Part shown: piece after piece, positions 47,042 through 51,152 of the stretch
Layout of the letters: the number at the start of each line of letters is the position of its first letter
Position numbering within the stretch: the stretch's first letter is position 1
Assembly (NCBI GenBank): GCA_002841375.1
Contig: PGZO01000001.1
Span: 124,001 to 188,000, forward strand
Origin: Firmicutes bacterium HGW-Firmicutes-7
Lineage (GTDB): Bacteria; Bacillota; Clostridia; Lachnospirales; Vallitaleaceae
DNA: 64,000 nt
Reading direction: 5' to 3'
The notes under the pieces: generated by a model
Database searches by the model: none
What the model saw: only the letters and a program-made list of their open reading frames with translations
Told to the model about the DNA's origin: nothing
Program-made: the position numbers and the translations under genes

Positions 47042-47908
47042 ATGTATATAGAGGTTATGAATTTGCAAGAAGGTGCAACAAATGCTGTATTAACAGCATA
47101 CCTCCAAGATTCAGCTATAGATAGTAGGTTTCCAATTGTAAGACCAGCTGTCATTATTTGTCCAGGAGGAGCCTTTATTGGAATTACCGAAAAAGAAGCA
47201 GATCCGATTGCGATGAGGTTTTTAGCAGCAGGGTATCATGTATTTATTCTAAAGTATTCAATAGGCGTAGGGATGGCAACCTTTCCAGCACCGTTTATTG
47301 ATGCAGCAAAATCAATAATGATGATTCGAGAAAATGCTAAAAAATGGTGTACAGACCCAGATAAAATTAGCTTTTGTGGATTTTCAACTGGCGGATATGT
47401 AGCTGCATTTTTGGCAGTAAGTTGGCAAGAAGCATATTTATCAAAGGCCTTAAATGCACCTAGTGAATTATTTAAACCAAACGCTTTAATATTAGGCTAT
47501 CCGTTGCTAGAATTGATACCTTTTGTAAAAAAGAATCTTAAAGAGTCTTCAACAATGCAATCAATTGTTGAGATGATGCTTGCTTCTATATTTGGGATCT
47601 TAAATCCTAGTGAAGAACTTATGCAGGAGTATAGTTGCAAACATAAAATTACTAATAACATGCCGCCAACTTTTCTGTGGACAATTGCCGAAGATTTAAT
47701 CATTGATGTGGACCAAAGTATCGATTTTATTAAAACCTTAGCACGTAAGGGTGTTCCATATGAATTTCATATTTTTGAAAAAGGTGCACATGGCTTGTCA
47801 TTAGCAGATCAGACAGTAGGATATTCAGAGGTTGAAATAACAAATAATATTAACGCGAATAAATGGATTGACTTAGCATTGTGCTGGCTAAAGGGGACAG
47901 GCTTTTAA
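47042..47908 (+). CDS. alpha/beta hydrolase, esterase/lipase type
   Basis: A 288-residue cytoplasmic alpha/beta hydrolase. The oxyanion-hole region CPGGAFIGITEKEADP (near residue 41), nucleophile elbow FCGFSTGGYVAAFLA (Ser near residue 120) and a C-terminal GAHGLSLAD His are in family order. It resembles the acetyl-esterase/BD-FAE branch; the natural ester is unknown. A strong AGGAGG precedes the ATG. Its last codons (KGTGF) are written in a REP-like AAAGGGGACAGGC, and its stop codon overlaps the stop of the convergent kinase gene. Confidence 0.87.
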   Translation: MYIEVMNLQEGATNAVLTAYLQDSAIDSRFPIVRPAVIICPGGAFIGITEKEADPIAMRFLAAGYHVFILKYSIGVGMATFPAPFIDAAKSIMMIRENAKKWCTDPDKISFCGFSTGGYVAAFLAVSWQEAYLSKALNAPSELFKPNALILGYPLLELIPFVKKNLKESSTMQSIVEMMLASIFGILNPSEELMQEYSCKHKITNNMPPTFLWTIAEDLIIDVDQSIDFIKTLARKGVPYEFHIFEKGAHGLSLADQTVGYSEVEITNNINANKWIDLALCWLKGTGF

Positions 47909-49431
47909 GCAAGATCAACTTCAAACCAAAATTCAACACCGCCAGGCACATTCATGGCACCATATTGATTGTTATGTGCTTTAATGATATTTTTGACGAT
48001 GGACAAGCCGAGACCTGAGCCACCATAGGATCTGGTTCTAGCAGCATCTATTTTATAAAAACTCGTCCAAATCTTCTCTAAGGATTTCATTGGAATAGGA
48101 TTACCTGTATTAAAAACAGTAATTCTTGCTTTGTGAGATACTTTTTGAATCTGTATTTTTACCACATGTTGGGCATCTACATGATGTAGGGCATTGTTCA
48201 TGTAATTGATCATGACTTGCTCTATCCTGTCAGGGTCTGCATTAATCATGATCGGACCCTCCATTTCGAATATCAAATTAATGGAATTGTTTAACAATAT
48301 TGGCTCCATTTTACGTATAATGTCTTTGGTAAACTGACAGATTTCAAAAGAACATTTTGAGATTGAAAACAACCCTGATTCCATTTGCGATAAATCTAAA
48401 AGATCACGGACAATAAAATCCATTTTATCCGTCTCTTCAACAATAACATCTGAATAAAAATTTCTTTTTTCTTCATCGTTGGCGATGTTGGCTTTCAGAC
48501 CTTCTGCATAACCCTGAATTAGGAAAATAGGTGTTTTAAGTTCATGAGAAACGTTTGAAATGAATTCTTTTCTCATATTATCTAATTTTCGTTCTTTATC
48601 AATATCTGCTTCTAATTGCTCGTTTTTTGTATTGAGTTCATTGATGGTGTAATTAAGCTTTTCGGATAACTTATTAATTGTATGAGAGAGTTCTGCAATT
48701 TCATCGTCACCCTTTATATCTAAGATTTTAGAAAAGTTTAGATCTAACATCTTTTTTGCAATTCGGTTCATATCCGTTATCGGATTTGTGAATTTTTTTG
48801 AAATATATAACGACCAAATACCTGTAATAATAAGTGTGATCAGCCCAATGATGGACGTAAAGTTATTGGAAACAGATATACTTTCGGATATTTCTGCCAT
48901 AGGTACCCATATGAGCAAGGTGAGACCGTTATCTAAAACAGTCTGAAACCTTAACGTATCAATTAGTAAATTAGGATCTTCAAAGCTTACGAAAATAGAG
49001 CTGTCATCATATTGTTCCCATTCCTTAATGACAACGATTTTATTCATCCTTTTACCATTATGTAAGGTTAATTGTGAACGGTCATTCGTATTTATTATAA
49101 AAAATGGATTTTCATATCCATTGATCATACGTTGGGGTAAATTATTAAGAACAGGATAGTATACATTACCGTCTGTTTCGCCTATTGTTATAGAAGCACC
49201 AATATTTCTTTCTAAGCGATTAATTGCTAGTAATGTTTGCACATCAAAAGGAACTTCAGTATTTTGAAGGTATTCATTGATTTTATTGCTATTTTCTGTC
49301 AAAAGAGCTTTCTTTTGGCTTATATAATAGCGATTAGCAAAAAGCAGGTTTGAAACATATAAAAGTACAGTGAAAAGTATGACGTTTGCAATCATATAAA
49401 CAAATAATTTGAAAAAAATTGATTTTCTCAT
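47905..49431 (-). CDS. membrane sensor histidine kinase
   Basis: A 508-residue kinase: TM1 (about 5-28), an extracytoplasmic sensor region of about 160 residues, TM2 (about 193-213), HAMP, a coiled-coil linker, HisKA with VSHELKTP (phosphorylated His) and HATPase with an N-box (NYMNNALHHV) and GSGLGLSIV. The ATG at 49431 has GAGGTG 5 bases upstream and lies one base after the response regulator stop, so the longer reading that begins inside that gene is rejected. The neighbouring secreted protein gene, transcribed away, is the likely target. Confidence 0.92.
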   Translation of the reverse strand: MRKSIFFKLFVYMIANVILFTVLLYVSNLLFANRYYISQKKALLTENSNKINEYLQNTEVPFDVQTLLAINRLERNIGASITIGETDGNVYYPVLNNLPQRMINGYENPFFIINTNDRSQLTLHNGKRMNKIVVIKEWEQYDDSSIFVSFEDPNLLIDTLRFQTVLDNGLTLLIWVPMAEISESISVSNNFTSIIGLITLIITGIWSLYISKKFTNPITDMNRIAKKMLDLNFSKILDIKGDDEIAELSHTINKLSEKLNYTINELNTKNEQLEADIDKERKLDNMRKEFISNVSHELKTPIFLIQGYAEGLKANIANDEEKRNFYSDVIVEETDKMDFIVRDLLDLSQMESGLFSISKCSFEICQFTKDIIRKMEPILLNNSINLIFEMEGPIMINADPDRIEQVMINYMNNALHHVDAQHVVKIQIQKVSHKARITVFNTGNPIPMKSLEKIWTSFYKIDAARTRSYGGSGLGLSIVKNIIKAHNNQYGAMNVPGGVEFWFEVDLA

Positions 49432-49432
49432 T

Positions 49433-50113
49433 CTACACCTCAAATCGGTAGCCATAACCTCTAATGGTGGCTATGGCATTTCCTTTGTTTCCTAACTTAA
49501 TTCTTAATCGATTAATATGTGTATCAACGGTTCTCTCGCCACCATAGTACTCGTAACCCCATACTTGGTTAAGAAGCTGTTCTCTAGAGATGACTTGTCC
49601 TAAGTTTTGGATGAGCATGAGGAGTAGCTCGAATTCTTTTGGACTTAAATTAATAACCTCACCAGATAGTGTCACTAAATGAGATGATGGATCAATTTCT
49701 AATTGGTCAAATGTATAAATCTGATTTTTAGTATTTGTTTTTTCAATTCTTTTAAACAATGCATTAATACGTGCAACGAGGGCGGAGGGTTTTACAGGTT
49801 TTTTAACATAATCGTCTACACCAATTTCGAAACCATGAATTTCGTCAAAATCTTCACTTCTAGCTGTTAGCATAATTATAGGGACATCATGTATCTTTTT
49901 GATTTCTCTGCAAACAGTCCATCCATCAAAAACTGGTAGCATAACATCTAGTAGTACTAAATCAATAGAGGCCATTGAAGCTTCGTAGGTTTCGATTGCC
50001 ATCTTTCCATCAGCTGCTTCAAGTACACGATAACCTTCTTTTTCCAAAAAGTCCTTTAATAGAATACGTATTTTTATTTCATCATCAACAACTAATATTG
50101 TTTTTGTATTCAT
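49433..50113 (-). CDS. OmpR/PhoB-family response regulator
   Basis: A 226-residue response regulator: receiver domain with acidic pocket DDE, phosphoacceptor Asp in LVLLDVMLPVFDGW, Thr in MLTARS and Lys in YVKKPVKP; C-terminal winged helix with EFELLLML, RTVDTHINRLRIKLG and RGYGYRFEV. GGAGG stands about 9 bases before the ATG. It is the first gene of a regulator-kinase pair. Direct repeats with 22-bp period upstream of the divergent gene are good candidates for its binding site. Confidence 0.94.
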   Translation of the reverse strand: MNTKTILVVDDEIKIRILLKDFLEKEGYRVLEAADGKMAIETYEASMASIDLVLLDVMLPVFDGWTVCREIKKIHDVPIIMLTARSEDFDEIHGFEIGVDDYVKKPVKPSALVARINALFKRIEKTNTKNQIYTFDQLEIDPSSHLVTLSGEVINLSPKEFELLLMLIQNLGQVISREQLLNQVWGYEYYGGERTVDTHINRLRIKLGNKGNAIATIRGYGYRFEV

Positions 50114-50200
50114 TGGTTAAATTCCTCCGATTAGTAATCTGGTTAAAGTATAACAATTTTTGAGGAAGATACAAAGTGATTTTTGAAATGTTGACAGAAC

Positions 50201-50266
50201 TGTAACATAATTGCGTTTTTATTGTGACGTTCGTGTACTTTTTTTGTAACGTTAAGATCATATAAT
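50201..50266 (+). promoter_or_regulatory. direct-repeat boxes and promoter of the secreted repeat protein gene
   Basis: TGTAACATA (50201), TGTGACGTT (50223) and TGTAACGTT (50245) recur at exactly 22 bp, two helical turns, on one DNA face. A consensus TATAAT (50261-50266) follows, but the -35 position is only a T run, as expected for an activator-dependent promoter. A palindrome CGTTC-GAAA-GAACG lies at 50274-50287 in the leader. Confidence 0.6.
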
Positions 50267-50318
50267 AAGCTTACGTTCGAAAGAACGAAAATAAGTACAA
50301 TTTGAAAGGAGATTCATT

Positions 50319-51152
50319 ATGAACAGAAATCTTAAAGCAGCAATCGGTATAATAGCGGTTGGAAGCTTAGTAGTATCGTTAGGAACTGGCGCATTTGCAG
50401 GCACTCAATTTAGAAGAAGTGCTCCAGATGGTGATACCCAAATGAATGTTAGCGCAAAAGCATCAACAGAAGATGAAAGCACACTAAGGTTAAGAGGAGA
50501 GGGCAAAAGACTGAATCAAAACGGATTTGGCAATAAGGCAGGTAGAGGTGTAATGGGTGGAGCTGGTGGCTATGGCACATTATTTGATACGGATGCGCTA
50601 GAAACTGCAGGTCTTATTACAACAGCTCAAGCTACAGAAATTAATGACTTTATATCTAAGCATGAAGCTGAAAGGTTAGAGCTAAGACAACAACTTGAAA
50701 GTATGACACAAGAAGAACGTCAAATCTATTTTGATAATCAGATAAATGTAGTTAGAGTTAATTTGCAAGAAGAGTTGGTTTCAAATAATATTTTGACACA
50801 AAATGAATTAGATATGATACAAGAATATATGCAGGATCAAAGATTAACACAACATCAAACAAAACTTTCAACAGGTTTAGAAGCCTTTGTAACAGACGGT
50901 ACCATAACCCAAGATGAAGCGGATGAAATAGTAGCGTATATGTCTGATGTTAGGGAACAACATCAAGAGGAGATGGCAGAATTAAAAGGTAAAACAGCAG
51001 AGGAAATGAAAGAATATTTTGAATTACAAGAATCTAAAGGTAACCTTTTGACAATAATGGTAAATGACAATGTTATTACACAAACACAAGCAGATGCCTT
51101 GGCTACAGTGCTTTGCCAGGGATCAAAGGGTGGAAGAGGTTTAGGACTTTAA
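50319..51152 (+). CDS. secreted four-repeat protein (DUF2680-like)
   Basis: A 277-residue exported protein with a signal peptide (residues 1-28, AFAG cleavage region). A Gly/Arg-rich low-complexity stretch (about 55-85) is followed by four copies of a helical unit of the form xGxITxxxAxxIxxYM (GLITTAQATEINDFI, NILTQNELDMIQEYM, GTITQDEADEIVAYM, NVITQTQADALATVL), separated by Glu/Gln-rich helices. Such units occur in DUF2680-type proteins of Clostridia; function unknown. Divergent from a two-component pair, suggesting control by it in envelope stress, much as CpxP relates to CpxAR; this is analogy only. Confidence 0.8.
   Translation: MNRNLKAAIGIIAVGSLVVSLGTGAFAGTQFRRSAPDGDTQMNVSAKASTEDESTLRLRGEGKRLNQNGFGNKAGRGVMGGAGGYGTLFDTDALETAGLITTAQATEINDFISKHEAERLELRQQLESMTQEERQIYFDNQINVVRVNLQEELVSNNILTQNELDMIQEYMQDQRLTQHQTKLSTGLEAFVTDGTITQDEADEIVAYMSDVREQHQEEMAELKGKTAEEMKEYFELQESKGNLLTIMVNDNVITQTQADALATVLCQGSKGGRGLGL

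Follow-up and report, generated by a model that had tools for sequence, protein, structure and literature searches.

A conserved direct-repeat array of 11-bp pitch between a two-component system and the gene of an exported DUF2680-related protein in Clostridia

Operators of OmpR/PhoB-type regulators and the layout of the array

The pho box, bound by PhoB, is a direct-repeat operator of the OmpR/PhoB family and ends about 10 bp before the -10 element. Further operators of this family have been described, and in those parts of the publications that were available the Clostridioides RR_1586 site is a repeated 11-nt motif (PMC6222199), KdpE recognises 6-bp half-sites 5 bp apart (PMC3264566), RstA was studied on a 22-bp DNA carrying two half-sites (PMC4117788) and the WalR/VicR site reads TGTWAH-N5-TGTWAH (PMC9210968, PMC4168254). 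A literature search for the site of Bacillus PhoP gave no match.

Here we describe an array of this kind in a 64,000-nucleotide stretch of the genome of Firmicutes bacterium HGW-Firmicutes-7, hereafter the window. It lies in the 205-bp intergenic region between a gene for an OmpR/PhoB-type response regulator (49433–50113, minus strand), in which Response_reg and Trans_reg_C domains are found, and a divergent gene for an exported 277-amino-acid protein (50319–51152, plus strand), the probable target. A sensor histidine kinase gene with HAMP, HisKA and HATPase_c domains (47905–49455, minus strand) overlaps the end of the regulator gene; the structural model of the kinase is weak, with a pLDDT of 60.7 that is too low to use. 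Elsewhere in the window, positions 100–27499 are taken up by two giant reading frames of 4332 and 4802 amino acids, in which ketoacyl-synthase, KR, DH and carrier domains recur; the matches listed (E up to 1e-10) include no acyltransferase domain, and a reductase-like NAD_binding_4 domain lies towards the end of the second frame, that of 4802 amino acids. We read the two frames as a polyketide synthase, probably of the trans-AT type. Rfam gave no match at gathering score in the 64 kb.

Three boxes at an exact 22-bp period had been proposed here, ahead of a perfect -10 that lacks a -35, and they are present exactly as claimed, all on the plus strand: box 1 (TGTAAC, 50201–50206, within TGTAACATA), box 2 (TGTGAC, 50223–50228, within TGTGACGTT) and box 3 (TGTAAC, 50245–50250, within TGTAACGTT), the last of these 10 bp upstream of the TATAAT at 50261–50266, the -10 of the secreted-protein gene, which is used by none of the eight promoter-like matches of a consensus scan. 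The strong boxes do stand 22 bp apart, but the underlying pitch is 11 bp, strong and weak half-sites alternating: 11 bp upstream of box 1 is a weak half-site, GTTGAC (50190–50195), between boxes 1 and 2 a degenerate position, TGCGTT (50212–50217), and between boxes 2 and 3 a weak TGTACT (50234–50239), so that the 11-bp rows read GTTGAC, TGTAAC, TGCGTT, TGTGAC, TGTACT, TGTAAC. From this alternation it follows that one dimer would cover 22 bp, and three dimers would fit on the array. The pitch matches the OmpR-family sites of low-GC Gram-positive bacteria as they appear in the portions of the papers at hand (PMC6222199, PMC9210968, PMC4168254), and to the same extent the RR_1586, KdpE and RstA operators resemble the window array in their head-to-tail half-sites, 11-bp pitch and roughly 22 bp per dimer. 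What sets it apart from the operators of the family is its TGTRAC half-site, of which three strong copies alternate with weak ones.

Near the expected transcript start is an inverted repeat, CGTTC-GAAA-GAACG (50274–50287, plus strand), which is unchanged in G001, the single further genome of the same genus drawn by our searches, and is not kept in Geosporobacter; its fold has a z-score of -2.14, with 5 of 200 shuffles equally good, and both an mRNA-stabilising hairpin and a second operator are possible.

Conservation of the array and of its gene neighbourhood

Judged from the single sequence, the periodicity is borderline and suggestive only, because 55 of 1000 shuffles of the 205-bp intergenic region reach the observed repeat in an open test that takes the best-matching 9-mer triple over all periods from 8 to 30. 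A search for TGTRAC-N16-TGTRAC-N16-TGTRAC finds a single match in the 64-kb window, with 0 of 100 shuffles containing one, and likewise a single match in the whole 4.08-Mb genome, where the reversed-pattern control has none; both counts are post hoc, the pattern having been defined after it had been sighted. Single TGTRAC hexamers show no enrichment in the window (48 observed, 46.5 expected). That the boxes are real and conserved is settled by comparison across genomes, which makes a convincing case at the level of sequence.

G001 carries the same unit, its regulator being 88% and its target 63–64% identical to those of the window, and its kinase 70% identical over the 175 residues compared. 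The three hexamers are identical there in 18 of 18 bases and the -10 in 6 of 6, the three spacers in 33 of 42. The divergent unit is also present in Geosporobacter ferrireducens (regulator 68% and kinase 53% identical), where the block corresponding to 50168–50266 aligns ungapped over 99 bp with 55 identities, compared with a mean of 40.8 and a maximum of 48 in 2000 shuffles. Across the window, G001 and Geosporobacter the rows common to all three are GTTGAC, TGTWAC, a variable row, TGTGAC, a second variable row, box 3 and TATNAT. GTTGAC keeps its bases and register in both relatives; box 1 is TGTAAC in G001 and TGTTAC in Geosporobacter, box 2 is identical in both, and box 3 is identical in G001 and a weak TGAAAA in Geosporobacter. 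The degenerate position is in register and unconserved (CTCGTT in G001, CTATTT in Geosporobacter), the half-site at 50234 is TGTATG in G001 and absent from Geosporobacter (GTAAAA there), and the -10, always in the same register, is TATAAT in G001 and TATGAT in Geosporobacter. The 11-bp pitch is thus found in the window and G001, and in part in Geosporobacter.

More distant homologues were sought with a profile in 392 genomes of the order, 27 of which matched, with 30 loci; 29 loci were used (L102 being the second piece of the L082 gene), 28 of them with enough upstream DNA. The layout TGTRAY-N5-TGTRAY-N10-TATAAT scores at least 15 of 18 in 8 of these 28 rows, with shuffle fractions of at most 0.006; five of the eight had been seen by eye before the box scan was written. 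The eight are the window, G001, two paralogues of G044 (taken as Defluviitalea phaphyphila Alg1, L140) and four genomes of genus g40; the remaining 20 rows, from families f5, f6, f12 and f17, score below 15. With the window target as sole query no relative was found among genome contigs, and an alignment query yielded 18 loci. The 18 named loci gave 20 gene rows, seven of which score at least 15 (shuffle fractions at most 0.012), namely a Tepidibacter MAG, a Bacillota MAG, two in Clostridium drakei, two in C. carboxidivorans and Defluviitalea; the other 13 score below 15. Geosporobacter is among these 13, with a score of 12 and a shuffle fraction of 0.69, owing to its weak box 3 and 50234 half-site. 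Genes of the first set recur in five of the 20 rows (L133, L136, L140, L143, L148), and in the two sets combined the box-to-(-10) layout is found in 14 of 43 distinct genes from about six lineages, the other 29 lacking the exact layout. A pattern search added one more homologue preceded by a site of this kind, again in C. carboxidivorans (L157). Among 224 other genes of the loci, taken as a control, 12 score at least 15; ten of these flank close relatives of the window regulator (L036–L040, L046), and the other two are in L138 and L128.

Linkage to a regulator gene is frequent: the fetched stretch contains one in 17 of the 29 homologue loci taken with about 1.5 kb on each side, and in 9 of the 18 taken with about 5 kb. 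On the basis of the 15 strong regulator matches of the own genome, chance linkage for the smaller flank is estimated at under 2%, in genomes that are non-independent, family f12 supplying many of the 17. The Defluviitalea target genes are not adjacent to the related regulator. The f12 and Monoglobus homologues have the gene order target-regulator-kinase and, upstream of the homologue gene, an ACA array of 11-bp pitch in the opposite orientation that can be aligned across 13 sequences (L090–L093, L095–L100, L103, L144, L145); the two Monoglobus regulators fall in a clade apart from the window regulator. Thermincola has TTCACA repeats. These arrays and repeats are treated here as parallels, not as the same operator.

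The candidate binder and rival readings

The adjacent, divergently transcribed regulator had been named as the natural binder of an activator-type promoter, and this is still the best-supported reading, on account of the conserved unit, the register and the boxes of its relatives; binding and activation themselves are proposed from these features. In a tree of 62 regulators, those of the window, G001 and Geosporobacter group together at support 1.0, and the regulators of L036–L040 and L046 join the window regulator at support of 0.60 to 0.64. Four of these close relatives (L036, L037, L038, L040) are divergent from VTC-domain-like genes, the domain having been tested for L037 and the other divergent genes being similar by eye. 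The flanks of L036–L040 and L046 carry TGTRAY-type boxes, e.g. TGTGAT-N5-TGTGAC, which in L036–L038 face both genes. Within 250 bp upstream of each regulator gene, a box score of at least 10 of 12 is reached by 11 of 12 near relatives versus 15 of 50 other regulators, and at least 11 of 12 by 7 of 12 versus 7 of 50. This near-relative group included L131 and L132 and omitted L041, L042 and L048, though these are tree-adjacent; with the latter three added, the counts at a score of at least 10 become 12 of 15 versus 14 of 47, and for only the node holding the window regulator they are 10 of 10 versus 16 of 52. In some near relatives the score is not above that of shuffled versions of the same DNA (L034, 21 of 100; L131, 100 of 100). 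The motif is therefore enriched near relatives of the window regulator, and is not private to them.

Taken together, we consider that positions 50190–50266 probably form an activator operator and promoter for the adjacent OmpR/PhoB-type regulator. We infer a route in which the kinase would phosphorylate the regulator, which would then occupy the direct half-sites, 11 bp from one to the next, in the form of head-to-tail dimers, each dimer taking one strong TGTRAC half-site and the weaker partner 11 bp upstream; three such dimer sites would give rise to the visible 22-bp period. The promoter-proximal dimer would occupy the place of the -35, 10 bp from TATAAT, and recruit RNA polymerase, such that an active kinase would lead to production of the secreted DUF2680-related protein.

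The main rival binder is a WalR-like regulator, and under this reading, which we regard as unlikely, the chief occupant of the array would be the WalR/YycF-like regulator of the own genome, and the secreted protein would belong to a cell-wall regulon rather than being the private target of its neighbour. The own genome does encode a YycF-like regulator, at 335.8 bits just below the cut-off of 340 (YycF in Defluviitalea reaches 344.1), and its locus (L181, 651–3904) continues with its kinase gene and a secreted-protein gene, the near-identical site TGTAAT-N5-TGTAAT-N10-TATAAT lying just after the former and 5' of the latter; in G001, G044, G057 and G095 similar sites share a contig with a regulator match some 2–2.5 kb away (gene order was checked in G000). 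The TGTAAT sites of genus g40 may well be WalR sites. As far as the accessible parts of the reports describe what WalR recognises (TGTWAH-N5-TGTWAH; PMC9210968, PMC4168254), its box has the hexamer core and the 5-bp spacer in common with the window array, but the G of box 2, where the consensus has A or T, and the C of the 50234 half-site TGTACT break the consensus, and 50190–50250 contains no strict consensus pair. The window regulator itself scores 206 bits against the YycF/WalR family (NCBIfam NF040534), below the cut-off of 340, and 214.6 against the PhoB family (TIGR02154, cut-off 296.2), and the target gene stays beside it in two other genomes, G001 and Geosporobacter.

Two weaker rivals concern what the array does. 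It is very improbable that the boxes are repressor sites blocking the promoter-like TTGAAA-N17-CATAAT (50183–50211), which they overlap and follow: although this is the top promoter-like match of the region, at 10 of 12, we rejected it as a promoter because it is not conserved, G001 having TTAAAA and CATAAA and Geosporobacter nothing similar, whereas TATAAT and the box spacing are kept. That the array serves mainly for autoregulation of the regulator-kinase operon seems more improbable still; the intergenic region is common to both genes and the arrays of L036–L038 face both, but in the window both the orientation and the spacing of the array suit the secreted-protein gene, and about 35 bp beyond it the regulator gene has a conserved extended -10 of its own (TG-N-TATACT, 50147–50155, minus strand, read by eye), TG-N-TATAAT being found 5' of the regulator gene in G001 and Geosporobacter also.

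Coming back to activation by the neighbouring regulator, the exact two-box 22-bp pattern with a -10 matches the window promoter and one further place in the own genome, the latter extending into the beginning of an ABC-transporter-like reading frame (by eye). With one mismatch there are 4 forward matches versus 3 and 1 in reversed controls, and the 11-bp pattern gives 2 sites versus 1 in the control (1 versus 2 in a stricter form); because these counts are close to those of the controls, no wider regulon is claimed for this genome. In Defluviitalea the 11-bp pattern gives 5 sites versus 0 in the control, and the stricter form 4 versus 0. In Defluviitalea and C. carboxidivorans (L166, L178), two-box sites are found as well in front of genes whose N-termini, by eye, look like those of glycosyltransferase-like membrane or sugar-transfer proteins, which hints at an envelope regulon.

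The probable target, an exported protein with DUF2680 kin

Small exported helical proteins whose genes diverge from the two-component system that probably controls them are known from CpxRA-CpxP and ZraSR-ZraP, and the window has the same arrangement, its small exported helical protein gene lying divergent from a putative controlling two-component system. It differs from these systems in the envelope type of the cells and in the target, for which a Pfam search at E up to 10 returned no LTXXQ or Metal_resist row. Literature searches for CpxP, ZraP, Spy and LTXXQ jointly gave no match; DUF2680 is nearly absent from the literature searched, being mentioned in one paper, and no match was found for DUF2680 together with two-component systems.

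The original prediction had described the target as a secreted repeat protein, and this stands, the protein having a signal-like N-terminus (by eye) and now appearing to be helical, with a two-fold repeat and a relationship to DUF2680; its homologues often neighbour two-component systems, and do so in several clostridial lineages. The window protein scores 10.4 bits against DUF2680 (PF10925), below the gathering score of 25, and several homologues exceed this cut-off (for example L004, 36.0; L005, 59.7; L131, 44.9; L137, from Geosporobacter, 37.5); a PF10925 search of G000 and G001 gave nothing above it. The structural model (mean pLDDT 71, pTM 0.53) shows a helical protein whose residues from about 91 to 267 form two similar halves, while residues 1–83 and 270–277 have pLDDT below 50. 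With regard to a helical-hairpin fold of the CpxP/Spy/ZraP type, which the protein may share, a Foldseek comparison of the model with the PDB gave two rows, neither with E below 0.001, and structure comparisons with the PDB gave nothing convincing. Profile matches to PDB sequences were taken as chance, the best being a pilin-like protein at E 0.00027.

By analogy with CpxP and ZraP, the target may act as an envelope-stress effector or as a modulator of the kinase. A wider and rather doubtful conjecture is that an envelope-stress module recurs among Clostridia, with a two-component system that would control, and may receive feedback from, an exported DUF2680-type repeat protein; it would be a Gram-positive counterpart of CpxRA-CpxP, assembled using at least two clades of regulator and two orientations of the operator. 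The pairing of this type of regulator with this type of secreted protein recurs in several distant bacteria and seems to be little studied. While the operator itself is textbook, its value lies in offering a simple entry, with one promoter, one regulator and one target, to a little-studied family of exported proteins.
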